Shown here: positions 5,225 to 40,521 of the stretch, in pieces | Numbering within the stretch: the first letter of the stretch is position 1 | Layout of the letters: every line of letters starts with the position of its first letter | Origin: Oceanicoccus sagamiensis | GTDB lineage: Bacteria > Pseudomonadota > Gammaproteobacteria > Pseudomonadales > Dasaniaceae | Reading direction: 5' to 3' | Assembly: GCF_002117105.1 (NCBI RefSeq) | Contig: NZ_CP019343.1 | Coordinates: forward strand, 2,666,001-2,730,000 | Length of the DNA stretch: 64,000 nt | Position numbers and translations under genes: made by a program | The notes under the pieces: generated by a model | Databases searched by the model: none | Told to the model about the DNA's origin: nothing | What the model saw: only the letters and a program-made list of their open reading frames with translations

Positions 5225-5258
5225 AATGGCATCTACCCAGTAGGTGCCATTTTTTTTG
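5225..5258 (+). terminator. Rho-independent terminator
   Basis: A 12-bp stem AATGGCATCTAC/GTAGGTGCCATT with a 3-nt loop is followed by eight T residues. It lies 21 bases after the stop of the outer-membrane protein gene. Confidence 0.85.
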
Positions 5259-14583: not shown

Positions 14584-15327
14584 TTGACACAGCCACTAAC
14601 ATTGCAGGATAACGAGGTTCATATTTGGCGGACGGACATTGCCCAGGTGCCCCGGACATTATTGCCACGCTATTACCAACTGATGTCGGCGCAGGAGCAG
14701 GTGCGTAATCAGCGCTATCGCACAGAGGCTCTGCGCGATGGCGATGCGATTACCCGAGCCTTGGCCAGAACCGTATTGTCACGTTATGCGGATATTCAAC
14801 CAGCCCAGTGGTCCTTTACTAAAGGCAAGCACGGTAAGCCTGAAGTTAATAACCCGGGTATTGACCTGCGTTTTAATCTTAGCCATACCTCTCAGGTAGT
14901 GGCCTGTGTGGTGACACGCCAGCATGATATCGGTTTGGATATTGAGCATATTGAGCGTAACAATAATGTACTGGCAATTGCCGATCGCTATTTTTCCCCG
15001 TCGGAGTTGACAGACTTATTTTCACTACCTGCCGACCAGCAAAAAGATCGTTTTTTTGATTATTGGACCTTAAAAGAAGCCTATATGAAAGCAGATGGTC
15101 GCGGTATAAGTTTAGGCTTGGGGAATTTCAGTTTTACTATTTCCGATGCAGCAACAATTTCAGTCAGTTTTTCAGAAAAAATTAAGCAGGATGCTGCTGC
15201 CTGGCAGTTTCAGTTATTTCACCCGGATAACCGTCATCGTATGGCCGTGGCCATTAATACAAGCCCTGGCAATTCGGGGCAAATAGCAGTAAGCCATTTC
15301 GAAACCATTCCATTGCAAATGCCATAA
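14584..15327 (+). CDS. 4'-phosphopantetheinyl transferase (Sfp/HetI type)
   Basis: The protein has about 247 residues from a TTG at 14584, which avoids a long overlap with the kinase gene; a GTG at 14527 would add 19 atypical residues. Sfp-type signatures are present: FNLSHTSQVVACVV, the Mg-binding GLDIEHIE (about 117-124) and FFDYWTLKEAYMKADGRGISLGL (about 158-179). These enzymes transfer phosphopantetheine from CoA to carrier proteins of fatty-acid, polyketide or peptide synthases. No synthase genes are present here, so it may serve primary metabolism or a distant cluster. The call is strong; the exact start is not. Confidence 0.88.
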   Translation: MTQPLTLQDNEVHIWRTDIAQVPRTLLPRYYQLMSAQEQVRNQRYRTEALRDGDAITRALARTVLSRYADIQPAQWSFTKGKHGKPEVNNPGIDLRFNLSHTSQVVACVVTRQHDIGLDIEHIERNNNVLAIADRYFSPSELTDLFSLPADQQKDRFFDYWTLKEAYMKADGRGISLGLGNFSFTISDAATISVSFSEKIKQDAAAWQFQLFHPDNRHRMAVAINTSPGNSGQIAVSHFETIPLQMP

Positions 15328-15329
15328 AA

Positions 15330-15358
15330 ATTACATAGAACCATCATGCCGCTGTCAT
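15330..15358 (+). promoter_or_regulatory. Pho-box-like repeats upstream of the beta-helix gene
   Basis: Three 7-mers spaced exactly 11 bp apart: ATTACAT (15330), CCATCAT (15341) and CTGTCAT (15352, a perfect PhoB half site). They match the CTGTCAT consensus at 4, 5 and 7 positions. PhoB boxes are built of such 11-bp direct repeats in place of a -35 element. The set ends 46 bases before the ATG of the beta-helix gene and is weaker than the one at 16962. Confidence 0.45.
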
Positions 15359-15404
15359 GTTAGCTTTCTAAGGTGGGCCCTCAATAACTATTAGGGGCTT
15401 AACC

Positions 15405-16634
15405 ATGAAAAATAAACTGATTTATCTCTGTTTGATCGCAGCAACGGCATCAAGTCATGCTTTAGCATCCAGCGTTGTACACGATGAAGACTCACTGCTT
15501 GCTGCCATTGAGTCAGCCAATAATAACCCTGCTATCAAACGTATTGTCTTTAAGCGCAATGCCACTATTAGCTTAACGGCACCCGTTATTTATAACGGTA
15601 AACAGCGCCTTAGCCTGCATGGCAATGGCGCCACTATTGATGGTAGTGGTGCTGGCTATTTTGTACTGGATGATGATCTTACTGCGGTGACCGAAGATGG
15701 TAGTTTGGTTTTTAATACCGCTGGTGATATCACTATTCGTCGTTTAACGGTTGCGAACAGTGCAACACGGGGCATCGTTGTTAATATTCCTGAAGATGCT
15801 AGCGGTGCTGATATTCGAGTAACACTGGATGGTGTAAAAGTAACTGACTCAGCACTGTTTGGCCTGCATATCGACGACAATAGCGATGCATTTGATGATG
15901 GCGATGCTGGTTCAGAGATCGGTATTGACTTGACTATTCGTCACTCTTCTTTTGTTGGTAATGGTACCGGTGCTATTGATTTTGATGGGGTACGTGTTGA
16001 TGAACGCGGTGAAGGCGATATTAATGCCATGATTATTAATAGCCATATCGACGCCAATGGCGGTGATGGTATCGAGCTGGATGAAGCGGGTACAGGTGAT
16101 GTCGACGCTACTATGATTCGCGTCACGATTAATGATAACGGTTTCTATAACGAAGAAGATCTTGATGACGGTTTTGATATTGATGAAGCCGGTGACGGTG
16201 ATATCGATGTTAGCCTGTTTAATGTAAAAGCCAGCAATAACCAGGATGAAGGTCTTGATTTTGATGAGGCTGGCGACGGTGATATCCAGTTTAAAGGCCG
16301 TTATGTTAAAGCCAATAATAATACGGATGAAGGTATCAAGCTGGATGAAGAGGATGGCGGTAATATTACTGTCAAAATGTCAGCGGTCGAATCATCAGGC
16401 AATGGTGATGATGGTATGCAATTGACAGAGCTGGGCAGTGGTTTTATTGCAGCCAGATTGCACCGTGTTAGTGCAGTGGATAATGCCAAGTACGGTATCA
16501 AAATGGAACAGTGGGTTGAGGAAGATGAAGTAGCGACTGTTGAAACTGCTGGCATTCTTAAGGCTCGCAAGGTAAATACCGCGAATAATGGTAGTGGCGA
16601 TGATATTGAACTAAATAATATTATCCAAAAATAA
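15405..16634 (+). CDS. Secreted acidic right-handed beta-helix protein
   Basis: The 409-residue protein has a signal peptide (MKNKLIYLCLIAATASSHALA). The rest is a parallel beta-helix: regular hydrophobic turns with repeated motifs of about 33 residues such as NGGDGIELDEAGTGDV, LDDGFDIDEAGDGDI, QDEGLDFDEAGDGDI and TDEGIKLDEEDGGNI. The many Asp/Gly/Asn residues on one face suggest calcium binding. The fold is that of polysaccharide lyases and surface adhesins, but I see no catalytic signature. Its upstream region carries PhoB-like repeats and the next gene is a TonB-dependent receptor, so it is probably part of a phosphate-starvation surface system. The protein may leave the cell through the type II system encoded at 29594-41304; that is inference. 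Confidence 0.75.
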   Translation: MKNKLIYLCLIAATASSHALASSVVHDEDSLLAAIESANNNPAIKRIVFKRNATISLTAPVIYNGKQRLSLHGNGATIDGSGAGYFVLDDDLTAVTEDGSLVFNTAGDITIRRLTVANSATRGIVVNIPEDASGADIRVTLDGVKVTDSALFGLHIDDNSDAFDDGDAGSEIGIDLTIRHSSFVGNGTGAIDFDGVRVDERGEGDINAMIINSHIDANGGDGIELDEAGTGDVDATMIRVTINDNGFYNEEDLDDGFDIDEAGDGDIDVSLFNVKASNNQDEGLDFDEAGDGDIQFKGRYVKANNNTDEGIKLDEEDGGNITVKMSAVESSGNGDDGMQLTELGSGFIAARLHRVSAVDNAKYGIKMEQWVEEDEVATVETAGILKARKVNTANNGSGDDIELNNIIQK

Positions 16635-16678
16635 GCGGTAAATAATTTATTCTTCAAGGTATTTGTTCTCGAGTTAAC

Positions 16679-16701
16679 CCCGCTAATAGCGGGTTTTTTT
16701 T
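16679..16701 (+). terminator. Rho-independent terminator
   Basis: Stem CCCGCT/AGCGGG with an AAT loop followed by eight T residues, 45 bases after the beta-helix gene stop. Confidence 0.85.
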
Positions 16702-16961
16702 ATTCTTTTAATCGTTAGAAAAATAACCCCCCCCTTACTGTTACTGATTGAAGCTCTGCTACTAGCTTGTCATATCCCTGCAATAAAAACTTCATTTTCA
16801 TGCCATCTCACTGAAATATTCCCTCGCTTTAATAACACCATAACGATTGTTCTTGCTGGAATCGAATAGCGATTTGTTCTGAGACAAGGCGAATGCATCC
16901 AGTTGGCAGGATGAAAAAAAATAACTGTCAGCATCGGTATCAGGGTTTTAAACGAAAAGGT
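16702..16961. other. Gene-free stretch before the TonB receptor
   Basis: No ORF is apparent. A run of eight C residues lies at 16727-16734. Together with the Pho-box-like repeats and leader the gap is about 400 bases, long for this window, and leaves room for further regulation of the receptor gene. I see no recognisable riboswitch or small-RNA structure. Confidence 0.4.
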
Positions 16962-16990
16962 TTGTCATTTATTGGTCATCATATTGTCAT
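16962..16990 (+). promoter_or_regulatory. Pho-box-like triple repeat upstream of the TonB receptor
   Basis: TTGTCAT (16962), TGGTCAT (16973) and TTGTCAT (16984) are spaced exactly 11 bp apart, each differing from the PhoB half-site consensus CTGTCAT at one or two positions. The group ends 46 bases before the receptor's ATG, the same distance as the repeats before the beta-helix gene. PhoB activates transcription under phosphate limitation by binding such tandem repeats. This is a sequence-based prediction. Confidence 0.65.
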
Positions 16991-17036
16991 CAGGCAACTT
17001 GGTGATTAGCTAGCTTAAGCGTAAATAGGGGTTTTA

Positions 17037-19880
17037 ATGAAAAAGTTGTTGTTCACCAGATTGGCCAGTATTGCGGTATTCACGGCCGGGATTACAGCCC
17101 ATGCCGCCAACGAGTTGGCCATCCAGGCTAATATTTCTCAATCCGATCAGCGGGCCTATTCGATTCGGGTCGACGGTAACACGCAATCGCTGCCGGGCAA
17201 TAGCGTGGTCACCTTTGATTTGAGTGAAGGTAGTCACAACGTGCAGTTGTTGGCAGAGGGTGATGAAGTACATGCCTTTACATTTAACAGCAAACAGAAT
17301 CAATTGACGGATATTGTTATCGAAGTCAACGCTGATGGTGCCACTGAGACTATCCGCTCTTTGCCGGCCAGTGATATGGATAACAGTATCATTAATGCGG
17401 GGACTCTGGTTCGCGGTAAGGCCGAGCCTGCAGCTGCCCGTGCCAGCAACGCAAATATTGAAGAAGTAACGGTGGTGGCCAAGGTTTCCGTGTCATCACT
17501 GGAGGAGACCGAGCGTTACTCCTCCAATGTGATCGACACCATGGGTGAAGAAGAAATGGAGCGCTCCGGTGATACCAATGTGGCACTGGCGATGTCGCGG
17601 ATTGTGGGTGTCACTATTCAAGAAGGAAAATATGCCAACGTTCGAGGTCTGGATGGCCGCTATATCTCCAGTACTTTAAATGGCTTGTTAATGCCAAGTA
17701 CGGATCCCATGCGCCGTGATGTGCAATTGGATTTATTCCCGGCAAATATTATCGGTGCTATCGAAATTCAAAAATCCTACTCAGCAGATCTGTTAGGCAG
17801 CACTACCGGCGGCAGTGTCAAAATGAAAACCAAAGGTTTGCCCGATGAAAAAACCACCGAGATTGCCCTCGGTATGGGCTATAACTTCGACGTTACCGGC
17901 GATGATATTCTTAGCTACCGTGGCAGTGATGGTGACTGGGCAGGTTATGACAGTGGCTTGCGTGATATCCCCAGCAATGTGGTTAATGCGACGGATGGTG
18001 GTCGTTCACTAACGATCTGCGATCCCTCCGTTGACCCGGTGCGCTGTACTGCGCCACTGACAGCCGCCTCATACGGTGTGCAATTCCAGGATGACTATAA
18101 CCTCAGTCAGAAAACAGCCCATCCGGATGTGGCGGCTTCCATTTCCCATGGCAATATCGTCGAGCATAGCTTCGGTGAAATCGGTTACTACGGTACGGTG
18201 GGTTACAAATACACTACCAAGGATCGCTTGGATGCCGAGTTAAATGACCCCTCAGCCACCGTAGGTGAATATGCCCGCAGTACCCAGAACACCAACGTTA
18301 ATGCCTATTTTATTACCGGCTATCAATTTGATGGTGGCGATGAAATTTTAAGTAAAACCATTTACCTGCATAACACCGACGATATTGCTCGCCGTGAAGT
18401 TGGTACCGACAACGAAGACAACGGCATTGAGCGCGTGGTACTGGAATGGGTAGAGCGTGAGTTTATTGCCCAACACTTTAGCGGCGACCATGCGTTTGCG
18501 GTGGGTGACCAGGATCATATTCTCGATTGGAATGCCGGCTACTCGGTCACGGACCGCTACGAGCCCGACCGTCGCACTTATTCTTACCTTAATGGTGTGC
18601 TGGCAACATCGGCCTTTGAGCGCCGTTGGTCAGAGCTGGACGAAGACAGTGTGGATTTATCGGTTGATTATAAAATCCCCTTTACCATTGGCGATGATGT
18701 TTATGCAGAATTCAAGATTGGCGCACTGTATTCCGATCGCTCCCGTGAAGTGGAATTAATCCGCTTTGGTGTGCAGCGCGGTGATAATGCCGATGAGATT
18801 TCTTTTGCCGATACCGAAAACCTCGAAGACGTGCTGTCTTACTACAACTATGTGTTAGATCGGGTAAGGCTGGGTACCAATACCACCGATACCGATTCCT
18901 ACGATGCGGATGAAGATGTTAATGCCGCCTATGCCTCGGCACTGTTTGAGTTTGGTGAAGACCTGACAGTATTAGCCGGTGTACGCCAGGAAGAGTTTAC
19001 CCAGGACTTGACCTATCCCAATGAAGATACCGCTTCCAACTCCCTGGAATCGGATGAGACCCTGCCGTCACTGGCGCTTACTTACCGCTTCGACAGCCAG
19101 TTCCAGTTGCGCGCTGGCTACAGTAATACCGTCTCTTACCCCGGTATTATCGAGCGTTCTGAATCACTGTCTTATGACCCGGATACCGATGACCCGATCT
19201 TTGGTAATCCTGATTTGGAAGTCAGCACCATCGATAATTTCGATCTGCGTTTAGAGTATTACATCACTGACCTCGAAACGATTTCGCTGGCCCTGTTCTA
19301 CAAGGATATTGATAGCCCGATTGAGCGCGCTGTACCAGACGCCTCCGGTTCAGCGGCTGACGGTATCACTTACCGCAATGCAGAGTCTGCGGAACTGGAA
19401 GGGGTAGAGCTGGATTTTACCAAGTACCTGATTGATACCGGTGACACACTGGCTTTTATTTCTGGCAACGTCTCTTATATCGATTCAGAAGTGGAGTTAG
19501 ATGAGGATTCGATTCGCCTTGAAGGTGAAGACTCCATTGGTCGCGAACTGCAAGGCCAGTCGCCCTGGTTGGCCAATTTACAGTTCGGTTTTGATGACTA
19601 TCAGGATCAACAAAAATTTACCTTGCTGGTTAATTTCTTTGACGATCGTATTTACCGGGTAACACGCGGCGGCAATAACGGACCCGAATATGAAAAAGGG
19701 CGAGTCTCGGTAGATTTTACTTATGAGAAAACCTTTGAGCGTCTGGAAGACAGTGTGGTGCTGAAACTAAAACTTAAAAATATTCTGGATGAAGAATTTG
19801 AAAAAGAAAGAAATGGGCAGGTGATTGAGTCTTATACCGAAGGTACATCTTTATCACTGGGTTTAAGTTACGAATTTTAA
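17037..19880 (+). CDS. TonB-dependent outer-membrane receptor
   Basis: The 947-residue protein has a signal peptide (MKKLLFTRLASIAVFTAGITAHA) and an N-terminal periplasmic domain of about 90 residues unlike the usual carboxypeptidase-D type. A TonB-box-like EEVTVVAKV (about 142-150) is followed by a plug domain (VALAMSRIVGVTIQEGKYANVRGLDGRYISSTLNGLLMP, GSTTGGSVKMKTK) and a 22-strand-type barrel ending GLSYEF with C-terminal Phe. Such receptors use proton-motive force through TonB to import large or scarce ligands. The preceding PhoB-like repeats and the lipoprotein gene 39 bases downstream suggest uptake of a phosphorus-containing ligand. The receptor class is certain, the ligand is inference. 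Confidence 0.92.
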   Translation: MKKLLFTRLASIAVFTAGITAHAANELAIQANISQSDQRAYSIRVDGNTQSLPGNSVVTFDLSEGSHNVQLLAEGDEVHAFTFNSKQNQLTDIVIEVNADGATETIRSLPASDMDNSIINAGTLVRGKAEPAAARASNANIEEVTVVAKVSVSSLEETERYSSNVIDTMGEEEMERSGDTNVALAMSRIVGVTIQEGKYANVRGLDGRYISSTLNGLLMPSTDPMRRDVQLDLFPANIIGAIEIQKSYSADLLGSTTGGSVKMKTKGLPDEKTTEIALGMGYNFDVTGDDILSYRGSDGDWAGYDSGLRDIPSNVVNATDGGRSLTICDPSVDPVRCTAPLTAASYGVQFQDDYNLSQKTAHPDVAASISHGNIVEHSFGEIGYYGTVGYKYTTKDRLDAELNDPSATVGEYARSTQNTNVNAYFITGYQFDGGDEILSKTIYLHNTDDIARREVGTDNEDNGIERVVLEWVEREFIAQHFSGDHAFAVGDQDHILDWNAGYSVTDRYEPDRRTYSYLNGVLATSAFERRWSELDEDSVDLSVDYKIPFTIGDDVYAEFKIGALYSDRSREVELIRFGVQRGDNADEISFADTENLEDVLSYYNYVLDRVRLGTNTTDTDSYDADEDVNAAYASALFEFGEDLTVLAGVRQEEFTQDLTYPNEDTASNSLESDETLPSLALTYRFDSQFQLRAGYSNTVSYPGIIERSESLSYDPDTDDPIFGNPDLEVSTIDNFDLRLEYYITDLETISLALFYKDIDSPIERAVPDASGSAADGITYRNAESAELEGVELDFTKYLIDTGDTLAFISGNVSYIDSEVELDEDSIRLEGEDSIGRELQGQSPWLANLQFGFDDYQDQQKFTLLVNFFDDRIYRVTRGGNNGPEYEKGRVSVDFTYEKTFERLEDSVVLKLKLKNILDEEFEKERNGQVIESYTEGTSLSLGLSYEF

Positions 19881-19919
19881 TAACTGATTAAATTGATAAA
19901 CAAAACTAGGAAGAAAACT

Positions 19920-22805
19920 ATGTTACAGAAAAAACTGTTTTTAGCGATAGCAGTTGCCAGCGTAACCCTGTTAACAGGTTGTAGCGACGGTGACGAAGGG
20001 GACGATGTCAGTATTGTCATCGAAAGTGAAGGGGGTGTCGACGGTGTGGGTGGTGATGAACCAGCAGATCCCGGCTTAAGTGGTGATTGTGCCAGCTTGA
20101 CGGCAGCCTCTTTTGTAAGCTGTGATGCCAATACCGGTAACGCCACTTTATCCGGCACGATTGATCAGGATTACACCCTGACCAGTGACCGTGAATGGCG
20201 CCTTGATGGAACGGTTTCTGTCGGTAGCGGCAATGTCACTGTTGCTGATGCTACCGCGGTACAGGCTATTAAAGATGCCGGTGTTACCTTAACGATTGAG
20301 CCGGGCACCAATGTTCGTGCGTTTGATACCGGTTCATTGTTAGTGACCCGCGGTTCAATGCTGCTTGCCGACGGCACAGCCTCAGCCCCCATCACTTTCA
20401 GCAGCGTTGCCGATTCAGACTTTGACGGTTACGGCGAGTGGGGTGGCGTGATTATCCAGGGCTTCGCTCCGCAATATGGCCAGGGTGGCACCGGCGCCTG
20501 TTTTGGTGCTGGCGAGGTCTGTAATATCGAAGGCGAAGGCGGTACTGAAGTGTCGGTTTATGGCGGTAATGAAGCCGATGATAATAGCGGTATTATCCGT
20601 TATGTACGTATTGCCGAGGGCGGCCTGATCGCTGGCCCTGACAATGAAATCAACGGCCTAACACTACAGGGCGTAGGTCACGGTACCGTGATTGAATATG
20701 TCCAGGTGCACAATAATCTGGACGATGGTGTTGAATGGTTTGGTGGTACGGTTAATGCCAGATATCTGGTATTGACCGGCAACGACGATGACGACATTGA
20801 TTTTGATGAAGGCTATCAGGGCAATATCCAGTACGCCATTATCCAGAAAGACCCTAACAAAGACACGCCTACGGGTAGCAACGATCCTCGTGGTATTGAA
20901 GCCAACTCCAGCGATGGCGACTATACGCCGGAAACTGAAGCGGTGCTGGCCAATATTACCGTTGTCGGTAGTGCGGTGAATAATGACCCTGACTCCAGCA
21001 AAGGCGAGCAGCCCGGTATGCGTTTACGCGGTGCTTTAACGGTCAGTATCTATAACAGCTCAGTGGATGGTTTTGATACCGGCTGTATTCGTATCGACGA
21101 TGCCGATACCGATGAAAATGCAGCCACGGGTGATGCCGATGGTCTGGAAGCTTTTTCCAATGTCACTCTGGTTAATGTGATTGGTGATTGTGAAGACGGC
21201 TTCTATGATAAGCGCGCTGCTGACACAGAAAGCAATATTGCTTCAACCGGCTTAAGCTACAGTTCTAGCTATGCTATCAATGAAGCGGCGGCTCAATTAA
21301 GCGAAGCGCCTGCCATTAATGCCGTCAATAATGGTTCAGGTTTTGCCTTTGACCAAACTGACTATGTGGGTGCGGTTGATCCCAATGCCTCCAGTGCCTG
21401 GTGGTTGGGCTGGATTATCGAAGGTTCATTAGTGGATGCGGCAATGCCTGCAGCAGCCGACTTTGTGAGCTGCGATAACAGCACTAACATCTGTACAGTC
21501 ACCGGTACTATCGATGAAGACTATCGCTTTATCAACGGCTACGAATGGCGTTTGGATGGTGAAGTGTTAGTGGGCACCGGTAATATCGCTATCGCCTCAC
21601 AGGCAGAGAAAGATGCGGTGATTGCTAACGGTGTTACCTTGACGATTGAGCCTGGCGTTGAAGTTCGCGCGTTTGATGACGGTTCATTGCTGGTGACTCG
21701 CGGTTCCAAACTGATTGCCGACGGTACGGCAGCAAGCCCAATTACTTTTAGCAGTGTCTCTGATGAAGATTACGACGGTGAAGGTGAATGGGGCGGTGTG
21801 ATCGTTCAGGGCTTTGCACCCCAGTATGGAGCCGGTGGTACCGGTGCCTGTTTTGGTGCCGGTGAAACCTGGTGTAACGTTGAAGGCGAAGGCGGTACGG
21901 TTGTAGGTCGTTTCGGCGGCAGCGATGCTGACGACAACAGCGGTATTATTCGCTATGTGCGTATTGCTGAAGGCGGCCTGGTGGCCGGTCCTAACAACGA
22001 AATCAACGGTCTTACCTTACAAGGTGTTGGTCACGGTACTGTAGTCGAGTATGTCCATGTTCATAATAATCTGGACGATGGTGTTGAGTGGTTCGGCGGT
22101 ACCGTTAATGCTCGTTACCTAGTGTTGACCAATAACGATGATGACGATATCGATTACGATGAAGGCTATCAGGGTAATATCCAATACGCCATTATTCGTA
22201 AAAACCCAAGCAAGTCTTCACCAACTGGCAGCAATGACCCCCGCGGTATCGAAGCTAACTCCAGTGATGCTGACTTTGTTCCAGAAACTGAGGCCGTATT
22301 GGCGAATATTCTGGTACTGGGCAGCGACGTTAACAACGATGCCACATCCTCCAAAGGTGAGCAGCCCGGTATGCGTCTGCGCGGTGCCTTAACCACATCG
22401 ATTTACAATACAGCGGTGAAAGATTTTGATACCGGCTGTATTCGTATCGATGATGCCGATACCGACGACAATGCAGCCACCGGCGATGCCGATGGTCTTG
22501 AAGCCTTCTCCACTGTCACCCTGGTTAATGTGATTGGCGATTGTGAAGATGGTTTCTACGACAAGCGTATGGCAGATACCGAAACCGGTACGATTGGCGA
22601 TACCAGCTTTACGGTAGGTATTGATTCTGCCTACGCCATCGGCGGTAGTGTGGGTGAGCTAAGCTCGGCACCAACCATTACGGCAGTCGATAACGGTTCA
22701 GGCTTTAGCTTTGAAGAAACTGACTTTATCGGTGCGGTTGAACCCGGTACTGAAGAAGCCGATGCCTGGTGGTCCGGCTGGATTATTGAAGGAGCGTTAG
22801 ACTAA
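19920..22805 (+). CDS. Large lipoprotein of two tandem homologous halves
   Basis: ATG 19920 (AGGAAG seven bases upstream) gives 961 residues, beginning with a signal peptide ending in the lipobox LTGC. The mature part consists of two homologous halves of about 440 residues (20106-21430 and 21451-22802). Both contain FVSCD, EWRLDG, LTIEPG, FGAGE, NSGIIRYVRIAEGGL, HNNLDDGVEWFGGTVNARY, DDDDIDFDEGYQGNIQYAII, GSNDPRGIEANSSD and the terminal GWIIEG. Each half looks like a right-handed beta-helix with acidic, probably calcium-binding turns. It follows the receptor gene by 39 bases and is probably co-transcribed, so it may be a surface partner in ligand capture, like SusD for SusC in layout but not in fold. 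No enzymatic motif is recognised. Confidence 0.82.
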   Translation: MLQKKLFLAIAVASVTLLTGCSDGDEGDDVSIVIESEGGVDGVGGDEPADPGLSGDCASLTAASFVSCDANTGNATLSGTIDQDYTLTSDREWRLDGTVSVGSGNVTVADATAVQAIKDAGVTLTIEPGTNVRAFDTGSLLVTRGSMLLADGTASAPITFSSVADSDFDGYGEWGGVIIQGFAPQYGQGGTGACFGAGEVCNIEGEGGTEVSVYGGNEADDNSGIIRYVRIAEGGLIAGPDNEINGLTLQGVGHGTVIEYVQVHNNLDDGVEWFGGTVNARYLVLTGNDDDDIDFDEGYQGNIQYAIIQKDPNKDTPTGSNDPRGIEANSSDGDYTPETEAVLANITVVGSAVNNDPDSSKGEQPGMRLRGALTVSIYNSSVDGFDTGCIRIDDADTDENAATGDADGLEAFSNVTLVNVIGDCEDGFYDKRAADTESNIASTGLSYSSSYAINEAAAQLSEAPAINAVNNGSGFAFDQTDYVGAVDPNASSAWWLGWIIEGSLVDAAMPAAADFVSCDNSTNICTVTGTIDEDYRFINGYEWRLDGEVLVGTGNIAIASQAEKDAVIANGVTLTIEPGVEVRAFDDGSLLVTRGSKLIADGTAASPITFSSVSDEDYDGEGEWGGVIVQGFAPQYGAGGTGACFGAGETWCNVEGEGGTVVGRFGGSDADDNSGIIRYVRIAEGGLVAGPNNEINGLTLQGVGHGTVVEYVHVHNNLDDGVEWFGGTVNARYLVLTNNDDDDIDYDEGYQGNIQYAIIRKNPSKSSPTGSNDPRGIEANSSDADFVPETEAVLANILVLGSDVNNDATSSKGEQPGMRLRGALTTSIYNTAVKDFDTGCIRIDDADTDDNAATGDADGLEAFSTVTLVNVIGDCEDGFYDKRMADTETGTIGDTSFTVGIDSAYAIGGSVGELSSAPTITAVDNGSGFSFEETDFIGAVEPGTEEADAWWSGWIIEGALD

Positions 22806-22845: not shown

Positions 22846-22880
22846 AAAGGCCGCACCCTCCCAAGTGCGGCCTTTTTTTT
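22846..22880 (+). terminator. Rho-independent terminator of the receptor/lipoprotein unit
   Basis: Stem GGCCGCAC/GTGCGGCC with an 8-nt loop followed by a run of eight T residues, about 40 bases after the lipoprotein stop. Confidence 0.88.
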
Positions 22881-22949: not shown

Positions 22950-23336
22950 TTAAATAAAAGCACCCACCAACTGCCAGGAGGTTTTGCCATCCTGGGTTTT
23001 AATATAGTGGTATTGCACCACAGAGCCCTCAGAAAGGTTTTCAATCAATGAGCCTTTGGGTTGTTTAAACTCCAGAGTGCCATCAATAATACAGCGGGAC
23101 TCTGGTTTATAAGGCTGCGCCTTATAAAAGTCTATCCGCACAATATTGCTGCCATCACTGGCTTTATCGGCAACCACTTTACCTTCCAGTAAACAATCCT
23201 GGAAAATAGTGCTGTGTTCGGTGGCTTGCAAAGCCGGGTTCAATGAGACTAGCCCGGCAAATATGCCAGCCATGGCCAGCGACTTGGTGGCCGGCATTTT
23301 TTGCAAAAAAAATCGAGATGTCATACTTATTTTCAT
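22950..23336 (-). CDS. Small secreted protein of unknown function
   Basis: The 128-residue protein has an N-terminal export signal (basic start to about residue 16, hydrophobic SLAMAGIFAGLVSLNPALQA). The mature domain of about 88 residues has two cysteines (FQDCLLEGK and SRCIIDG) that could form a disulfide. Its beta-rich pattern ends VVQYHYIKTQDGKTSWQLVGAFI. No family recognised. The gene has its own terminator and about 290 bases of non-coding sequence upstream. A shorter start at the second Met (about residue 5) is possible. Confidence 0.65.
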   Translation of the reverse strand: MKISMTSRFFLQKMPATKSLAMAGIFAGLVSLNPALQATEHSTIFQDCLLEGKVVADKASDGSNIVRIDFYKAQPYKPESRCIIDGTLEFKQPKGSLIENLSEGSVVQYHYIKTQDGKTSWQLVGAFI

Positions 23337-29278: not shown

Positions 29279-29593
29279 GGCTATTTGTAGCTGATTACAG
29301 CTTATCTTTCCTCGGTATTTTGCGGTGTTTGTACTATCTTTACAGTGCAAGCTCACTGTCATCTGTCAGTCATATGACCATGCTAATGTTGAGCCCTGCC
29401 GGTAGTGTAGGCAGGGTTGGGTGAGCGCACTTTTTACAAGGGGTAGCAGCAATTCTAGGCCATGATGCAAAGTTTTCCAGTCTGTTGTGAATATGCCACA
29501 GACTTAGCGGCCAATGTTGCTGTGATTAGGGTTCCTATCACCTTGTAAGCCCCATATAATGGCTCGCTAACGATAAAAAATTGAGGTGGTAGA

Positions 29594-30553
29594 TTGACAG
29601 CAGAGCAGGTGACGGCGCGGGTTGCGATGATAGTGCAACAATTGACAGAAGTGGCAAAATCTCTACCTGTGCAATCCGTGAATAAAGCCGTTTGTGGTGT
29701 GCTTATTGTTTGGCTACTCATTACCTTAGGTCAGTTGACCACGGTGTTTATAGCCAGTGACACCATGCCTGTTGAGGCCGCTGACCCGGCAGAGCCTGCT
29801 ACCTTAAAACCCGCCAGTAAAACCGATATCAGCCAGTTGCAGTCCATTAATCTATTTGGTGTCGCAGGCGCAGTGCCGCTGGCACCGGTTGAGTCGGTAC
29901 CGGTAGCCGATGAGATGGCATTAAATGCCACCAAAACCAAGTTAAAGCTCAGTTTAGAAGGCATTGTTTACACCCCTGATGACGATGAGTCTCTGGCGGT
30001 GATTGTTTACCAAAATAAGCAGGACCAATACTATATCGGCGATAAGCTGCCAGTGGGCAACAAAGTTACCCTGGCCCGGGTTATGGCTGACCATGTCATC
30101 CTGGATAACAGTGGCCGCTATGAGTCCCTATGGCTTTACGATGATGAGAAAAAAGCCGCTGGAAAGGGGGCTGCTGCGGTTAGCAGGCCGGCCAGCAAGG
30201 CCGTCACTGACAAGCGTAATAATAACGATGCCACCAAACTGGCAACAGGCTACCGTGACCGACTGTATAAAAACCCCAGTTCACTGGCGGAAGTATTGCG
30301 TATTTCACCAGCACAAAAAAATGGTCAAATGCTGGGCTATCGTGTGAGTGCCGGGCGTGATCGCAAACAGTTCGCAGCTTTGGGTTTTAAAGCCAATGAT
30401 ATTGTAACCAGTATTAATGGCATTGAATTAGATGAACCTTCCAAGGCATTGCAAATCTATAAATTAATGCGTACAGCCAAAGAGGCCACCTTTGTGGTTG
30501 ATCGCAATGGTAGCCCTGTTGAGGTGTTGGTTTCTTTGGGTGAAGATCAGTAA
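29594..30553 (+). CDS. gspC: Type II secretion protein GspC
   Basis: The 319-residue inner-membrane protein starts at TTG 29594 (GAGGTGG a few bases upstream). It has one membrane helix (about 37-58, VCGVLIVWLLITLGQLTTVFI), a periplasmic HR domain (about 80-190: LQSINLFGVAG, KLKLSLEGIVYTPDDDESLAVI, YYIGDKLP) and a C-terminal PDZ domain (about 245-319: GYRVSAGRDRKQFAALGFKANDIVTSINGIEL). GspC links the inner-membrane platform to the secretin GspD and helps select substrates. It is the first gene of the gspC-N operon. Confidence 0.93.
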   Translation: MTAEQVTARVAMIVQQLTEVAKSLPVQSVNKAVCGVLIVWLLITLGQLTTVFIASDTMPVEAADPAEPATLKPASKTDISQLQSINLFGVAGAVPLAPVESVPVADEMALNATKTKLKLSLEGIVYTPDDDESLAVIVYQNKQDQYYIGDKLPVGNKVTLARVMADHVILDNSGRYESLWLYDDEKKAAGKGAAAVSRPASKAVTDKRNNNDATKLATGYRDRLYKNPSSLAEVLRISPAQKNGQMLGYRVSAGRDRKQFAALGFKANDIVTSINGIELDEPSKALQIYKLMRTAKEATFVVDRNGSPVEVLVSLGEDQ

Positions 30554-30652
30554 TAAATAATAACGTCATTGCTGCGCAGGCAGCGGCCCAAAGGGGGCTT
30601 ACCGATTGGGGTTGGGAATGGCGGAAAAATTTCATAATCAGGTATAGGTTTT

Positions 30653-32737
30653 ATGGTTTTATTTCAATGGGGATTGAAGGCTGCAAGGCGGTCGATAGTG
30701 TTGATGGCTTTAGTCGCGAGTGTCAGCTCCGTCGCCAATGCACAGACGGCCAGCGCTACACAGGCTCAGGGCGAGCAGACCTGGACTGTTAACTTTAAAG
30801 AAACGGATATTCATGAGTTAATTCGCTTTGTTGCCAAGGCATCGAAAAAGACCATCATTATTGACCCCAAAGTTAAAGGCAAGGTTCAGGTTATTTCAGC
30901 GAAACCGGTAACCAGTGCAGAGCTTTATGAATTATTTTTATCCATTCTGGAAGTTCAGGGTTTTGCTGCGGTGGAGTCGGGTAATGTCACGCGGATTATT
31001 CCTGCCAAAGATGCCAGAACAGCTCCTGTCGGTGTTCAAACCGGCAGCGACTTGCCGGTCAGCAGCGCCATTGTGACCCAAGTGATCCAATTACAGAATA
31101 TTTCAGCGGCCAAATTAATTCCGGTGCTGCGCCCATTGGCGCCACAGCAAGCCCATATGGCTGCTTATGCGCCGAGTAATGCGATTATTATTTCTGATAC
31201 CGCTGCCAATATAAATCGCATTAAGTCCGTGATAAATAGTATTGACCTATCGGCAGTACAAAAAACCGATATCGTGCCACTCGAACATGCGTCTGCTGAA
31301 GAAGTGGTGCGTATGTTAGAGCAGTTAAAAAAATCAGAGGCGGCCAAAGGCAAGGCTGAAACTAAAAAATTAGTCTTGGTGGCTGATAAGCGTACCAACA
31401 GTGTACTAGTCACCGGCGATGAGCTGGAACGCCAGCGGGTCAAGCTATTAATTGAATATTTGGATACCCCTTTAGCCCAAAGTGGTAATGTCAAAGTTGT
31501 CTATCTTGAGTATGCGGTGGCCAAAGACCTGGCTGGTGTGCTGACTAAAGTTGTGCAAAATATGGAGCGGATGAACCAGCAGAATGATGTCAGCAAGGGC
31601 AATAAAAAAGCCACGGCGACCATTGAAGCTGATGAAGGTACTAATTCATTAATTGTAACGGCTGAAGCCGATATCATGCAGTCCTTGTTATCGGTGGTCA
31701 AGCGCTTGGATATTCGCCGAGCGCAGGTATTGGTTGAAGCGATTATTGTTGAAATGACTGATGATGATGGTCGTGATCTGGGTATCGAATGGCTATTCCT
31801 TAACGATAGCGGTGCTTACGGTTCATCCAGTAACCAGGGCTTGGGTGGTGCGATCGCTTCCGCCGCTTTTGAAACCGATGAAAACGGTGACCCGGTTGAT
31901 TCCCGTGCCGGTATTGCAGAAGTGTTAGGCGGTGCTGCGGGACAGGTGCTTGGTATCGGCCAGCTTGATGATGATCTGAGCTTTAATGTGGTGATCAATG
32001 CCTTGCAGGGTAACCGCGAGGCCAATATCCTATCGACACCCTCATTGTTAACGCTGGATAACGAAGAGGCGTCTATCACCGTCGGTGAAAATATTCCCTT
32101 TGTGACAGGCTCTTATACGTCTACCGGTAATTCTTCTAATCCCGATAGTCCTTTCCAAACCGTTGAGCGGGAAAATGTCGGGATTACGTTAAAAATTACC
32201 CCCCAGATTAATGAGGGCGATTCTCTGGTGCTGGCCATTTCTCAGGAAGTATCCAACGTGATCGAAGGCAGCGCTACGCTAAATAGCAATGTGATTACCA
32301 GTGAGCGAAAAATTGATACCAAAGTATTGGCCGACAACGGCCAGATTATTGTGCTCGGTGGTTTGATTGAAGATGATGTCACTGAGCAGGTACAAAAAGT
32401 GCCCGTGCTGGGTGATATGCCGATTATCGGTGCTTTGTTTAGAAGTACCTCTACCCGTGTGGGTAAAAAGCATTTGCTGATTTTTATTCGCCCCACCATT
32501 GTTCGTGATAAGCGCACGATGGATGAAGCAACCGGCCAGAAGTATAGCTTGATTCGCCAGCAACAATTATTGGAAATCGAAGAAGGCGTTGACCTTGTCG
32601 ATGACTCAGCTCTACCATTATTACCGCAGTGGCGGGAACAGTTAGAAGAACTGCAAGATATTCAGGATCAAAAAGCTGAAGATGCAGAAGCTGAACCAGC
32701 GACAGAATCAGAACAAGCAGAGGCGCAAGCGCAATGA
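30653..32737 (+). CDS. gspD: Type II secretion secretin GspD
   Basis: The 694-residue outer-membrane secretin has a signal peptide ending in VANAQ. N0-N3 ring domains follow (about 45-370: WTVNFKETDIHELIRFVAK, VVYLEYAVAKDLAGVL, ATIEADEGTNSLIVTA), then the secretin domain (LDIRRAQVLVEAIIVEM, LSTPSLLTLDNEEASITVGENIPFVTG, VPVLGDMPIIGALFRS, HLLIFIRPTIV). The last 60 or so residues form an acidic Glu/Ala tail. Twelve to fifteen copies form the outer-membrane channel. No gspS pilotin gene is in the window. It lies 100 bases after gspC. Confidence 0.96.
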   Translation: MVLFQWGLKAARRSIVLMALVASVSSVANAQTASATQAQGEQTWTVNFKETDIHELIRFVAKASKKTIIIDPKVKGKVQVISAKPVTSAELYELFLSILEVQGFAAVESGNVTRIIPAKDARTAPVGVQTGSDLPVSSAIVTQVIQLQNISAAKLIPVLRPLAPQQAHMAAYAPSNAIIISDTAANINRIKSVINSIDLSAVQKTDIVPLEHASAEEVVRMLEQLKKSEAAKGKAETKKLVLVADKRTNSVLVTGDELERQRVKLLIEYLDTPLAQSGNVKVVYLEYAVAKDLAGVLTKVVQNMERMNQQNDVSKGNKKATATIEADEGTNSLIVTAEADIMQSLLSVVKRLDIRRAQVLVEAIIVEMTDDDGRDLGIEWLFLNDSGAYGSSSNQGLGGAIASAAFETDENGDPVDSRAGIAEVLGGAAGQVLGIGQLDDDLSFNVVINALQGNREANILSTPSLLTLDNEEASITVGENIPFVTGSYTSTGNSSNPDSPFQTVERENVGITLKITPQINEGDSLVLAISQEVSNVIEGSATLNSNVITSERKIDTKVLADNGQIIVLGGLIEDDVTEQVQKVPVLGDMPIIGALFRSTSTRVGKKHLLIFIRPTIVRDKRTMDEATGQKYSLIRQQQLLEIEEGVDLVDDSALPLLPQWREQLEELQDIQDQKAEDAEAEPATESEQAEAQAQ

Positions 32738-32768
32738 TTAAAGCCGATGCATACTACGATGGTCGTTT

Positions 32769-34310
32769 ATGATGGATGATGTTGAAGCCATTATCCAGGA
32801 TGGAGCGCTAACCACAGAGGAGCTTGAGCCGATAGCTGGTGGCCGCATTCAACAGCTGCCGTTTACCTTTGCGCAAGCCCACGGTGTGCTGTTGCAGTAT
32901 GAGAATGATAAGCCCCATATTCTTTATCGCAGCGGTTTAAAAGTCGCTACCTTATTGGAGCTGCGTCGAGCGCTGGGTGAACCCTTTACCCATGCCGAAT
33001 TAGCCGACCAGGTTTTTCAAACCCGGCTCACCCGCGCTTACCAAAAAGATAATAACGAAGCCGTTCAGGTTGCCGAGGATATGGGGGCCGATATTGATCT
33101 TACTCGGCTGGCCGATGAAATTCCCGACACAGCTGACTTAATGGATGCTGATGATGATGCGCCGGTTATTCGGTTGATTAATGCGGTTTTATCCCAGGCT
33201 GTACGTGAACAGGCTTCGGATATTCATATTGAAACCTTTGAAGATCGGCTTACCGTACGTTTTCGTATCGACGGTATTCTGACTGAAGTGCTTTCGCCAA
33301 AACGTATGTTGGCGCCGCTATTGGTATCGCGGTTAAAGGTGATGGCGAAACTGGATATTGCTGAAAAGCGTGTACCGCAGGATGGTCGTATCTCTATTCG
33401 TTTAGCGGGCCATGCGGTGGATATTCGTGTGTCTACCATTCCCTCGGCCCATGGTGAGCGAGTGGTACTGCGACTGTTAGATAAGCAGGCCGGGCAGTTG
33501 CACCTTGATCAATTGAATATGAACGAGCAGGCCCACGAAGGCTATACCAAAGCACTGCATACGCCCCACGGTATTATTTTAGTGACCGGCCCAACGGGTT
33601 CCGGTAAAACCACAACGCTCTATGCGGGCTTGACCCATATTAATCAAAGCAGCCGTAATATTTTAACTATTGAAGACCCGGTGGAATATTTACTGCCAGG
33701 TATTGGCCAGACGCAAGTGAATTCCAAAGTTGATATGACATTTGCGAGAGGCTTGCGTGCCATCTTACGGCAGGATCCCGACGTGGTGATGGTGGGAGAG
33801 ATTCGTGATACCGAAACGGCAGAAATTGCAGTGCAAGCGAGTTTAACGGGCCACTTGGTTTTATCCACGTTGCACACCAATACCGCAGTGGGCGCAATAA
33901 CTCGCTTGCAAGATATGGGGGTTGAACCGTTCTTACTCTCCTCAAGTATTATTGGTGTTTTAGCCCAGCGCTTGGTGAGGGTGTTATGCGAACACTGTAA
34001 AGAGGGTCATCCTGCCAGTGAGGGCGAGCTAGCTGTGTTAGGCATCAGCAACCCTACGGAAGACATCACTATTTACCGTGCCACGGGTTGTGATCACTGT
34101 AACCAGGGCGGCTACAAAGGTCGTACCGGTATTTATGAAATGATTGAGATCGATGATGAGTTACGCACCATGATTCATGAGGGGGCTGGTGAACAGGAAA
34201 TGCTGACAGAGGCGCGCAAACGTGCCGGTGGTATTTTAGATGATGGCCGGCGCCGGATTTTGGCGGGTGAAACCACGATTGAAGAGGTGTTGCGGGTAAC
34301 CGCAGCCTAA
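32769..34310 (+). CDS. gspE: Type II secretion ATPase GspE
   Basis: The 513-residue hexameric cytoplasmic ATPase powers pseudopilus assembly. It shows an N-terminal domain that binds GspL, Walker A GPTGSGKT (274-281), an Asp box (ILTIEDPVEY), Walker B (VVMVGEIRDTETA) and a His box (LTGHLVLSTLHTNTA). A tetracysteine zinc motif (CEHC, then CDHC) is near residues 400-440. Length and motifs are those of a typical full-length GspE. It lies 31 bases after gspD. Confidence 0.97.
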   Translation: MMDDVEAIIQDGALTTEELEPIAGGRIQQLPFTFAQAHGVLLQYENDKPHILYRSGLKVATLLELRRALGEPFTHAELADQVFQTRLTRAYQKDNNEAVQVAEDMGADIDLTRLADEIPDTADLMDADDDAPVIRLINAVLSQAVREQASDIHIETFEDRLTVRFRIDGILTEVLSPKRMLAPLLVSRLKVMAKLDIAEKRVPQDGRISIRLAGHAVDIRVSTIPSAHGERVVLRLLDKQAGQLHLDQLNMNEQAHEGYTKALHTPHGIILVTGPTGSGKTTTLYAGLTHINQSSRNILTIEDPVEYLLPGIGQTQVNSKVDMTFARGLRAILRQDPDVVMVGEIRDTETAEIAVQASLTGHLVLSTLHTNTAVGAITRLQDMGVEPFLLSSSIIGVLAQRLVRVLCEHCKEGHPASEGELAVLGISNPTEDITIYRATGCDHCNQGGYKGRTGIYEMIEIDDELRTMIHEGAGEQEMLTEARKRAGGILDDGRRRILAGETTIEEVLRVTAA

Positions 34311-34323
34311 GGCTGGTAAAGCG

Positions 34324-35550
34324 ATGTCGGCATTCAGTTATAAAGCGTTAGACAGCAATGGCAAAATGGTCAAAGGGGTTATTGAGGGAGACTCAGAACG
34401 CCAGGTCAGAAGCCAGCTGCGCTTGCAGCAATTAAAACCGGTTGCTGTTGCCGAGTCCGCAGAAAAAATTACCAAGCCTCGCAAAGGTTTTAATCTGGAG
34501 GGTTTATTTAAGCCCCGTATCAGTCAGGCCGATTTATGTTTGATTACCCGGCAAATGGCTACGCTGGTCCAATCCAATATGCCTTTGGATGAAGTGTTGA
34601 CGGCTACAGCGCAGCAAGCAAGAAAACCCCGTATTAAAAGTTTGATGTTGCAGGTGCGTGCCCGTGTTCTGGAAGGTCATAGTCTGGCCTATGCACTGGG
34701 CGATTTCCCGCAGATATTTAATGAGATGTATTGCTCCATGGTTAAAGCGGGTGAAACAGCAGGCTTTTTAGGCACCGTACTTGAGCAGTTAGCCGACTAT
34801 ACAGAAAACAGTCAGCATACGGCGCAGAAATTAAAAGGGGCTATGATCTACCCGATTATTCTTACCTTGTTATCGGTAGCGGTTATCGGTGTGCTGATGA
34901 TTTTTGTGGTGCCTGATCTGGTCGGCATGTTTAATCATACCAAACAGGAATTGCCTGCCTTAACCAAAATGGTTATCGCCACCAGTGATTTTTTTGCGGA
35001 AAAATGGTGGACACTTATTGTTGGCTTGGTGTTGGTGCTGGTCGGCTGGCAGCAACTATTAAAAAGCCCGGAGCGTCGTAAAGTGTGGCATCAACTGGTG
35101 CTAAAGCTGCCGTTTATTTCCGGCTTTGTGGTGGCGATGGATACCGCTCGTTTTGCCTCGACATTAAGTATATTAACCAGCAGTGGTGTGCCGCTGTTAG
35201 ATGGTTTGCGGATAGCGGGAGAAGTCCTGACCAACTTGCGTTTGCGAGAAGCGAGCAAAGAAGTCGCCATTACCGTGCAGGAAGGTGGCAGTTTGCACCG
35301 TGCACTGGATCAGGCGGAAGTGTTCCCACCCATGATGGTGCATATGGTTGCCAGTGGTGAAGCCAGTGGTGAATTGGAAAATATGTTGGCGCGCTCGGCT
35401 TTAACCCAGCAGCGTGAGTTAGATATGAGCCTGGATAATTTAATGGGCGTGTTTGAACCGATGATGATTCTGGTAATGGCAGCGGTGGTCTGCACGATTG
35501 TGTTTTCCATCTTAATGCCCATTATCCAAATGAATAATTTAGTGGCTTAG
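34324..35550 (+). CDS. gspF: Type II secretion inner-membrane platform protein GspF
   Basis: The 408-residue platform protein has two homologous cytoplasmic domains, each with ARxxxTLxxSGVPL-type segments (ITRQMATLVQSNMPLDEVL and DTARFASTLSILTSSGVPLLDGL). Three transmembrane helices lie near 170-190, 220-240 and 375-400, and the end is FEPMMILVMAAVVCTIVFSILMPIIQMNNLV. It forms the core that connects GspE, GspL and the pseudopilins. It lies 13 bases after gspE. Confidence 0.96.
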   Translation: MSAFSYKALDSNGKMVKGVIEGDSERQVRSQLRLQQLKPVAVAESAEKITKPRKGFNLEGLFKPRISQADLCLITRQMATLVQSNMPLDEVLTATAQQARKPRIKSLMLQVRARVLEGHSLAYALGDFPQIFNEMYCSMVKAGETAGFLGTVLEQLADYTENSQHTAQKLKGAMIYPIILTLLSVAVIGVLMIFVVPDLVGMFNHTKQELPALTKMVIATSDFFAEKWWTLIVGLVLVLVGWQQLLKSPERRKVWHQLVLKLPFISGFVVAMDTARFASTLSILTSSGVPLLDGLRIAGEVLTNLRLREASKEVAITVQEGGSLHRALDQAEVFPPMMVHMVASGEASGELENMLARSALTQQRELDMSLDNLMGVFEPMMILVMAAVVCTIVFSILMPIIQMNNLVA

Positions 35551-35583
35551 TACTGAGCTTTAACAAATTGATAGGAACCAGTG

Positions 35584-36042
35584 ATGAAGAAACAGTATCG
35601 TAAACAAGCAGGCTTTAGTTTAATCGAAATAATGGTGGTCTTGGTTATTATCGGTTTATTAGTCAGCATCGTTGCCCCCAATGTATTAGATCAGGCCGAT
35701 GATGCTCGGGTACAAAAAGTACAGGCAGACTTTAGCGCTATTGATACCGCCCTTAGCATGTATCGCTTGAATAATTTTACTTACCCAACCAGTGAGCAGG
35801 GTTTAGAAGCACTGGTAGAAAAGCCAACTATTGATCCTATCCCCAGTAATTGGAAAAAAGGTGGCTACCTGAAAGACCTGCCGCTGGATCCCTGGGGTCG
35901 CCCTTATTTATATTTAAGCCCCGCGGAATTTAGCGAAGATGATTATGACCTCTATAGCCTGGGTGCCGATGGCGTGACCGGTGGTGAAGATCAAAATGCT
36001 GATATCGGCAGCTGGATGAAAAAAGGCGGTGAAGACGAGTAA
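35584..36042 (+). CDS. gspG: Major pseudopilin GspG
   Basis: The protein has about 152 residues from ATG 35584 (AGGA upstream). The prepilin signature is QAGFSLIEIMVVLVIIGLLVSIV, cut after Gly and methylated at Phe by the prepilin peptidase GspO, which is not in this window. The pseudopilin domain has TYPTSEQGLEALVEKP, GGYLKDLPLDPWGRPYLY and the calcium-binding loop DGVTGGEDQNADIGSW. It is the main pilus subunit of the secretion piston and overlaps the start of gspH by 14 bases. Confidence 0.96.
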   Translation: MKKQYRKQAGFSLIEIMVVLVIIGLLVSIVAPNVLDQADDARVQKVQADFSAIDTALSMYRLNNFTYPTSEQGLEALVEKPTIDPIPSNWKKGGYLKDLPLDPWGRPYLYLSPAEFSEDDYDLYSLGADGVTGGEDQNADIGSWMKKGGEDE

Positions 36043-36703: not shown

Positions 36704-37109
36704 AGCCTCGGGCAAGCCACAGCATCGACAATCAGGTTTTACCCTGGTTGAAGTTATGGTTGCGCTGATGATTGTAGCGGTGGCTATTTCATCGCTGCTA
36801 TTTCAAATGATGAGTACCATTAACAATACCGCTTATCTACGTGAGCAAACCATTGCCCATTGGGTCGCTTTAAATCAGCTAGAACTGGTTTATCTGGAAA
36901 ACAGAAATAGCAACCAGCTACTAAGCAGCGAACGCTCAGGGACAGAAGAGATGGCGGGTAAAGAGTGGTTCTGGCGTATTAAGCCGGTCAAAACCGATAA
37001 TGCTGACTTTGCCCAGTTGGTGGTCTCTGTTTATGCCGACGAGGATGACCAGGAGTCATCGATTGTTAGCGTCACCGGTTTAATCGACCGTTTTCATCGG
37101 CCGCTATGA
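36693..37109 (+). CDS. gspI: Minor pseudopilin GspI
   Basis: The 138-residue minor pseudopilin has the prepilin motif QSGFTLVEVMVALMIVAVAISSL, then REQTIAHWVALNQLE and EWFWRIKPVKT, characteristic of GspI. It forms the tip complex with GspJ and GspK. It overlaps gspH by 11 bases and gspJ by 4 bases. Confidence 0.93.
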   Translation: MKNKASGKPQHRQSGFTLVEVMVALMIVAVAISSLLFQMMSTINNTAYLREQTIAHWVALNQLELVYLENRNSNQLLSSERSGTEEMAGKEWFWRIKPVKTDNADFAQLVVSVYADEDDQESSIVSVTGLIDRFHRPL

Positions 37110-38789: not shown

Positions 38790-38819
38790 TTGACGATTGA
38801 TAACAGGCGAGAGCAAAAC

Positions 38820-40037: not shown

Positions 40038-40041
40038 GGCG

Positions 40042-40518: not shown

Positions 40519-40521
40519 ACG

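Follow-up and report, generated by a model that had tools for sequence, protein, structure and literature searches.

In the genome of Oceanicoccus sagamiensis, a gene for a TonB-dependent receptor is followed by a gene for a large lipoprotein, and the two probably constitute a PhoB-controlled outer-membrane acquisition unit of the kind to which the Caulobacter crescentus lipoprotein ElpS belongs. Both genes lie in a stretch of 64,000 nucleotides, here called the window (G000:C1:2666001-2730000 of a single-contig genome of 4.47 Mb); its positions are counted from its first letter. The boxes, the conserved pairing of the two genes, the phosphate genes linked to them and the kind of fold of the lipoprotein were computed directly, and from these we infer induction, co-transcription, surface exposure, ligand binding and import. 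An initial annotation of this DNA had claimed that the receptor and the lipoprotein are under phosphate-starvation control. The sequence data now favour this claim on three grounds, namely a site that is rare genome-wide, the promoters of related units in other species, and the presence of phoB, pst or ppk genes next to part of the related loci.

A putative PhoB box precedes the receptor gene

Judged by its sequence, the receptor promoter contains a PhoB-type box, made of tandem TGTCAT-type repeats at 11 bp, for which sites in the pst operon and before phoB served as positive controls. The core and the spacing of the repeats agree with those of the E. coli PhoB box. The initial annotation had reported 11-bp-spaced repeats before two genes, one group being strong and both ending 46 bases before the ATG, and both were found. 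The strong one (16963-16990, 1 mismatch in 18) is in the receptor promoter, and the only triple of equal quality in the genome is located in the pst operon. The other precedes the gene of a secreted protein of 409 residues. Its best triple (TTACAT-N5-CATCAT-N5-TGTCAT, 15331-15358) shows 4 mismatches in 18, as many as the array in front of phoB, ends 46 bases before the ATG at 15405 and is extended by a fourth repeat, TGCCAT, from 15320. A Pho-like triple with 4 mismatches also ends 149 bases upstream of the gene of a small secreted protein (22950-23336).

Chance levels were taken from 1,500 random 500-bp windows on one strand, a pool that contains the loci themselves. The best match had at most 1 mismatch in 0.07% of these and at most 4 mismatches in 1.5%. 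Each of the 4-mismatch arrays (before the genes of the 409-residue protein and the small secreted protein, and before gspC) would thus, taken alone, turn up fortuitously in about 1.5% of windows of 500 bp. Triples with up to 3 mismatches numbered 3 on both strands of the 4.47 Mb and 5 for a reversed control, so that this site count carries no meaning. The two-repeat pattern with up to 2 mismatches gave 299 sites in the whole genome versus 291 for its control, which is background, and therefore cannot find Pho boxes in this genome; a pattern spaced by N4 (10-bp period), used as a further control, gave 279 sites versus 267 when reversed. Among 14 doubles listed with one mismatch, only the site at 29357 and two overlapping sites at the receptor gene are intergenic with a downstream gene start on the matching strand. 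The remaining ones lie within genes or in a hairpin, or have no gene start beside them, and reverse-strand sites may be missed in this list.

The pst region used as a control comprises phosphate genes on one strand, of which PhoB, PhoR, PstA and PstB pass curated cut-offs and PstS passes the cut-off of a PstS family. PhoB is encoded by the single gene of the genome that exceeds the TIGR02154 cut-off (346 versus 296 bits), and the array before phoB is found 49 bases upstream. The 1-mismatch site of the pst operon is directly followed by a frame of 390 residues that has no NCBIfam match. In our reading, a pstC-type gene is here divided between two frames, of which this one is the first and the other resembles PstC below the cut-off. 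As the site ends only 12 bases before the first ATG of the 390-residue frame, the real start may lie further on. The two frames of the pstC-type gene are separated by a gap (2990-3868 and 4078-5250 of locus L218, minus strand).

The receptor and lipoprotein genes are paired across species

A scan of species genomes yielded at least 487 confirmed relatives of the lipoprotein, of which the best provided 79 named loci. In 72 of these, a receptor gene and a lipoprotein gene are adjacent on the same strand, the lipoprotein gene coming first in 47 and the receptor gene in 25. Of the seven others, four (L122, L130, L138, L147) stop at the lipoprotein frame; in L160 and L168 the receptor gene is about 5-6 kb off, and L141 has both genes when looked at separately. 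In a phylum sample, the lipoprotein was present in 46 of 299 genomes, and a receptor open reading frame (ORF) of the same family was found in the flank of 28 of the best 30 loci, the window's own included. The two misses correspond to a flank that stops inside a second match piece (L204) and to a contig end (L214). Because of the adjacency in 72 of 79 loci and the same-family receptor at 28 of 30, the pair is, as judged from gene order, a genuine conserved unit, in agreement with the functional pairing that had initially been proposed. A second lipoprotein copy, with a single unit and no receptor-family ORF in the fetched stretch, was noticed in genome G056 (L175, 7843-9555).

The promoter regions of these units were scored over a span of -400 to +200, counted from the first start of the unit's leading gene; the controls were other genes of these loci that measured 450 bases or more. 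Scores were obtained for 74 of 80 loci (the 79 and the window), the unscored ones having less than 150 bases upstream (L118, L157, L161), a pair that is apart (L160, L168) or having been lost in clustering (L141). Arrays with up to 5 mismatches preceded 35 of the 59 mostly proteobacterial units and 32 of the 582 control genes (Fisher P 1e-23, which overstates independence because the species are related). With up to 4 mismatches, the corresponding counts were 20 of 59 and 19 of 582. Clear boxes precede, for example, the units of Catenovulum maritimum (L128, 1 mismatch) and Sinimarinibacterium flocculans (L096, 4 mismatches), both culturable.

The receptor and the lipoprotein, as modelled

That a TonB receptor is encoded was clear from its barrel (PF00593) and plug (PF07715) domains. 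It scores 202 bits with TIGR01782, under the cut-off of 310 of this model, and a TonB-box-like EEVTVVA can be read ahead of the plug. The gene is separated by 39 bases from that of the lipoprotein, for which the ATG at 19920 is preferred over the TTG at 19893 that opens the listed frame. NCBIfam names neither of the two proteins nor the 409-residue protein over its cut-offs, and a sequence search of the PDB, with the thresholds used, gave no relatives for any of the three.

The large beta-helix lipoprotein that had been annotated after the receptor is borne out by its LTGC lipobox (residues 18-21, with C21 invariant in 43 sequences) and by modelling. It contains two units, at about residues 62-504 and 512-960, with an identity of 74% across 449 aligned positions. 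The protein matched no Pfam or NCBIfam family at E ≤ 0.1, SusD and PL6/GH28-type models included. The structure predicted from the 43-sequence alignment (mean predicted local distance difference test score (pLDDT) of 86.0) models the protein as two parallel beta-helices. Its top matches in the PDB are parallel beta-helix proteins, first PL6 alginate lyases (E 3e-5) and AlgG. The template modelling (TM) scores by query length were only 0.07-0.19 in the 50 rows shown, at 8-10% identity, and such low values mean that the search supports a fold type and no particular enzyme.

In the first unit, R144, E206, D221, E243, N245, D268, D269, E272, D290, D291, D294, Q304, E327 and N345 do not vary in any of the 43 sequences, and their counterparts in the second unit are identical in all 36-37 sequences that have a letter there. 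D268/D269/E272 and D290/D291/D294 are 22 residues apart, which corresponds to about one turn of the helix. They should thus stack into an acidic patch.

Other features of the locus

Table 1. Features of the window around the receptor/lipoprotein pair
Feature	Position	Strand	Basis or remark
Pho-like array before the gene of the 409-residue protein, weaker, 4 repeats in 11-bp register	15320..15358	+	pattern scan
Secreted acidic protein, 409 residues, probable beta-helix	15405..16634	+	Pfam PF13229 just above cut-off; isoelectric point 4.1
Second, weak Pho-like array upstream of the receptor gene	about 16757..16817	+	triples with 4-5 mismatches
Putative strong Pho box, TGTCAT-N5-GGTCAT-N5-TGTCAT	16963..16990	+	1 mismatch in 18; 46 bases to receptor ATG at 17037
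TonB-dependent outer-membrane receptor, 947 residues	17037..19880	+	PF00593 (barrel), PF07715 (plug)
ElpS-type lipoprotein, 961 residues, lipobox LTGC, two predicted beta-helix units	19920..22805	+	sequence and model
Probable intrinsic terminator 3' of the lipoprotein gene (GGCCGCAC...GTGCGGCC then T-run)	22849..22879	+	read by eye, unscored
Small secreted protein, repeatedly encoded beside the pair	22950..23336	-	adjoins the pair in several relatives too
Pho-like double repeat before gspC	29357..29373	+	1 mismatch in 12; triple 4 in 18; 220 bases before gspC frame
Type II secretion operon gspC-gspN	29594..41304	+	6.8 kb downstream of the lipoprotein gene

Clusters of ORFs placed PhoB/PhoR-type genes in 14 of the 79 loci, PstS in 7, PhoU in 5 and Ppk/Ppx in 4, with any of these in 21. 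In 7 of the 21 (L093, L114, L128, L129, L142, L160, L167), the linkage depends on untested regulators or kinases, or on ones under the PhoB/PhoR cut-offs; 14 are left. The PhoB cut-off was exceeded by 8 of the 13 regulators tested (those of L102, L104, L110, L115, L124, L136, L173 and L174, the last two being extra relatives outside the 79). The regulator cluster has further members, outside these 13, in L128 and L155, as well as the second ones of L110 and L136. Curated models confirmed PhoR in L110 and both PhoU and PstB in L094, and L115 carries the Pfam PhoR domain; the PstS of L109 and the Ppx of L155 stay under their cut-offs. The regulators of L142 and L167 had their best score on PhoB, yet under the cut-off. 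These two are Bacteroidota loci in which PhoB- and PhoR-type genes stand beside the pair, like in the phoBR locus of Flavobacterium.

The idea that every neighbouring regulator is PhoB was rejected, since those of L093 and L129 are under the cut-off and that of L160 scores best on another regulator. Neighbouring ABC proteins were likewise not all counted as PstB. Pit-like neighbours (L098, L100, L120) were excluded, the tested one (L098) scoring higher on a sulfate permease and below both cut-offs.

At least three of the five families DUF3450, ExbB, ExbD, TonB and TPR are encoded near the pair in 12 of the 79 loci, which fits an energy-driven import. The order lipoprotein-receptor-gspC is contiguous in 10 of the 79; the record titles of these 10 loci name alphaproteobacteria or genera that we take to be such. 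In the gsp operon of the window, GspC and GspD exceed NCBIfam cut-offs, GspE clusters with a Pfam-confirmed T2SSE protein, and the proteins F to N were named by clustering or reading. The genome holds two gspC (T2SSC) genes. In the 3.4-kb stretch around the second (L183, G000:C1:3669010), no array under 6 mismatches was found, and a Pho-like double repeat is seen only before the gspC of the window.

The small secreted protein possibly represents a further member of the set. Its gene adjoins the lipoprotein gene in the window and in L172, L173, L174, L179, L181, L098 and L100, and the receptor gene in L129. It has a conserved QDCLLEG-type motif, and its gene is mostly convergent to the pair. 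In L113, L116, L119 and L122 (Colwellia, Litorilituus), the lipoprotein gene is preceded by an ammonium-transporter-type gene, named by reading.

The 409-residue protein had been described as acidic and as a beta-helix. Its acidity was confirmed by its isoelectric point; the beta-helix part just exceeds the Pfam Beta_helix cut-off (26.2 versus 25.9 bits), and the single-sequence model is of low confidence (pLDDT 56). The search for co-occurrence of the three genes retained the receptor/lipoprotein pair and gave no support to the 409-residue protein as a conserved partner. Nothing better than E 0.18 was found for it in 11 relative loci from 10 genomes, and in 56 relative genomes the only match was a stretch of 36 residues in two genomes of the same genus. 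On the basis of these 11 loci and 56 genomes, we rejected it as a conserved third partner. Common ancestry with the lipoprotein was also rejected, no BLAST match being better than E 0.63. In the two genomes with the remnant (G002, L170 1126-1557; G006, L171 1552-1983), a short frame fuses the end of the gene of the 409-residue protein to the start of the receptor gene. It adjoins a stretch of SFPRRRES-type repeats, and the whole locus is apparently decayed.

Discussion

In the mechanism that we favour, PhoB would bind the box of 11-bp repeats at 16963-16990 during phosphate starvation and turn on the receptor gene together with the lipoprotein gene behind it. The lipoprotein would go to the outer membrane, probably to its outer face as is the case for Caulobacter ElpS, and display its two beta-helix units. 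The acidic set of each unit most likely binds a divalent cation and, with it, a phosphorus-containing ligand, or else processes this ligand. The receptor would import the product with TonB energy and Pst would take over in the periplasm, while the nearby type II secretion operon, with its Pho-like site, plausibly exports helper hydrolases.

Several observations weigh against this reading. The ≤5-mismatch threshold is missed by 24 of the 59 mostly proteobacterial units. The initial annotation had named homologous loci devoid of Pho boxes and tied to another nutrient as a counter-argument; 35 of these 59 have arrays, and none of the 14 Bacteroidota/Verrucomicrobiota units has one with up to 5 mismatches. 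The closest relative that has the pair (G003, with a lipoprotein 78% identical) shows no recognisable triple, its best having 7 mismatches, and 5 of the 9 relatives scanned, G003 included, reach the ≤5-mismatch threshold. Related species are, moreover, not independent samples. The pstS gene of this genome has 7 mismatches at best, which means that the scan misses some true Pho genes or that those genes have no triple. Among the neighbouring regulators, 5 of 13 remain below the PhoB cut-off, and the kinase of L093 is under that of PhoR. The window pair appears to belong to the ElpS kind, this homology resting on family and gene order. In the Caulobacter study, phosphatase activity was no lower in an elpS deletion mutant. 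The receptor gene cc0171 was reported to be constitutive, ElpS was still produced after its deletion, no change of intracellular phosphate was seen after a shift to poor medium, and the authors could not show a transport function for ElpS/CC_0171 (PMC2996285).

We considered the possibility that the lipoprotein activates secreted phosphatases or serves as their scaffold, a role proposed for ElpS, and that the receptor is a neighbour with a ligand of its own. In that study, cells overexpressing elpS had a higher extracellular alkaline phosphatase activity, which ElpS itself lacked, and the release of ElpS depended on type II secretion (PMC2996285). In 10 of 79 loci the pair is also followed by type II secretion genes, which are 6.8 kb off in the window. 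Yet 72 of 79 loci have a member of one receptor family next to the lipoprotein, whichever gene comes first, and TonB-ExbB-ExbD sets lie near the pair in 12 of 79, both of which point to import; the unchanged phosphatase activity after elpS deletion also argues against this function, which seems unlikely to us. The lipoprotein could alternatively be a carbohydrate-active beta-helix enzyme or binder acting on a glycan (for instance a polysaccharide that is phosphorylated or comes from a host wall), its Pho control reflecting where the phosphorus is bound. This would agree with the best fold matches (PL6 alginate lyases and alginate epimerases), with the spacing of the invariant acidic set by about one helix turn, and with the modelling of the Flavobacterium homologues on polygalacturonase (PMC8115612). 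Weak fold scores of this size would, however, suit any parallel beta-helix, the lipoprotein has no Pfam family at E ≤ 0.1, and no glycan enzyme was recognised by reading in the neighbour clusters present in at least 5 loci, family models having been run only on the phosphate, secretion and TonB clusters. We consider this glycan function improbable.

Iron and glycans are frequent substrates of TonB receptors of this class. The repeats might be fortuitous or be the sites of a different regulator, with the pair serving another nutrient such as iron; the background level of the two-repeat motif and the lack of a box in G003, the nearest relative, are in line with this. It is opposed by the enrichment of arrays in promoters across species, by the pst/phoB control sites, by the linkage to phosphate genes, and by the induction that was reported upon limitation of phosphate and not of iron in Caulobacter (PMC2996285) and Flavobacterium (PMC8115612). 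Such an explanation is very improbable.

The PhoB-controlled acquisition unit could also be extended to a broader scheme, which we put forward as a tentative one. The unit would then be the phosphate counterpart of a polysaccharide-utilisation locus, present in Pseudomonadota and Bacteroidota, in which the invariant, calcium-binding acidic site of a surface beta-helix lipoprotein cuts or captures an anionic phosphorus polymer. It would be equipped with its own TonB receptor, to which the product is passed on, a Pho-controlled type II secretion system exporting helper hydrolases, in some lineages its own TonB-ExbB-ExbD motor and, here, a second, separately Pho-controlled secreted beta-helix protein that was gained.

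The ElpS family was noted in Caulobacter in 2010 and in Flavobacterium in 2020. The present comparison connects it, in many proteobacteria, with a single receptor family and with promoters of the Pho type; for part of these bacteria the connection extends to type II secretion, TonB-motor, phoB, pst and ppk genes. Together with the invariant residues named above, these links make a direct test of import through the receptor practical. Since phosphorus limits growth in many waters and soils, a common and unexplained uptake route is worth settling.

Comparison with known systems

The initial annotation had stated that no system with this set was described. This does not hold, because the Caulobacter elpS-cc0171 pair (PMC2996285) and the Flavobacterium loci PUSIII/PUSIV (PMC8115612) are of the same kind, so that the receptor/lipoprotein set had already been described in outline. 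A literature search limited to open-licence papers found no study of the pair beyond PMC2996285, PMC11208175 and PMC8115612. Caulobacter ElpS (CC_0170) is a phosphate-starvation lipoprotein exposed at the surface of the outer membrane (Le Blastier 2010, PMC2996285). It is encoded with the TonB receptor CC_0171, upstream of the type II secretion operon gspC-N, and is shed from the cell in a step that depends on this system. The authors note that the two genes tend to be found together in genomes and that stalk extracts had been reported to contain both proteins, and they show the tandem elpS arrangement for Caulobacter and a few other species (PMC2996285). A study of 2024 placed the type II secretion system and several TonB receptors of Caulobacter in the PhoB regulon (PMC11208175). 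In Flavobacterium johnsoniae, the low-phosphate lipoproteins FI, FII and FIII are reported to share 31-36% identity with the Caulobacter protein; TonB transporters are encoded beside FI and FII (PUSIII/PUSIV), FII being part of the phoBR operon, and PusCD is induced by phosphate starvation (PMC8115612).

The unit of the window shares with ElpS/CC_0171 a lipobox lipoprotein, an adjacent TonB receptor, a phosphate-starvation control (predicted here from the promoter sequence) and the association with a type II secretion operon. Unlike in Caulobacter, the receptor gene comes first, the secretion operon is 6.8 kb away with other genes in between, and the pair is flanked by the genes of the 409-residue beta-helix candidate and of the small secreted protein. 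As only 10 of 79 family loci share the lipoprotein-receptor-gspC order, a directly adjoining secretion operon was not treated as defining. Flavobacterium FI/FII resemble the unit by a lipoprotein beside a TonB transporter and by the link to low phosphate, but belong to another phylum, and the Bacteroidota/Verrucomicrobiota units are those without PhoB-type array at ≤5 mismatches (0 of 14). SusCD and PusCD similarly combine a TonB transporter with a partner lipoprotein, whereas the partner is here a predicted beta-helix protein without SusD domain match. PL6 alginate lyases and the AlgG epimerase are comparable by their fold only, a parallel beta-helix, the PL6 alignments spanning both units; the identity of 8-10%, the low TM-scores and the lack of a family match set the lipoprotein apart from them. 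What the present analysis adds to these systems is the count of their spread, the conservation of the proteobacterial promoters, the fidelity of the receptor and the invariant residues.

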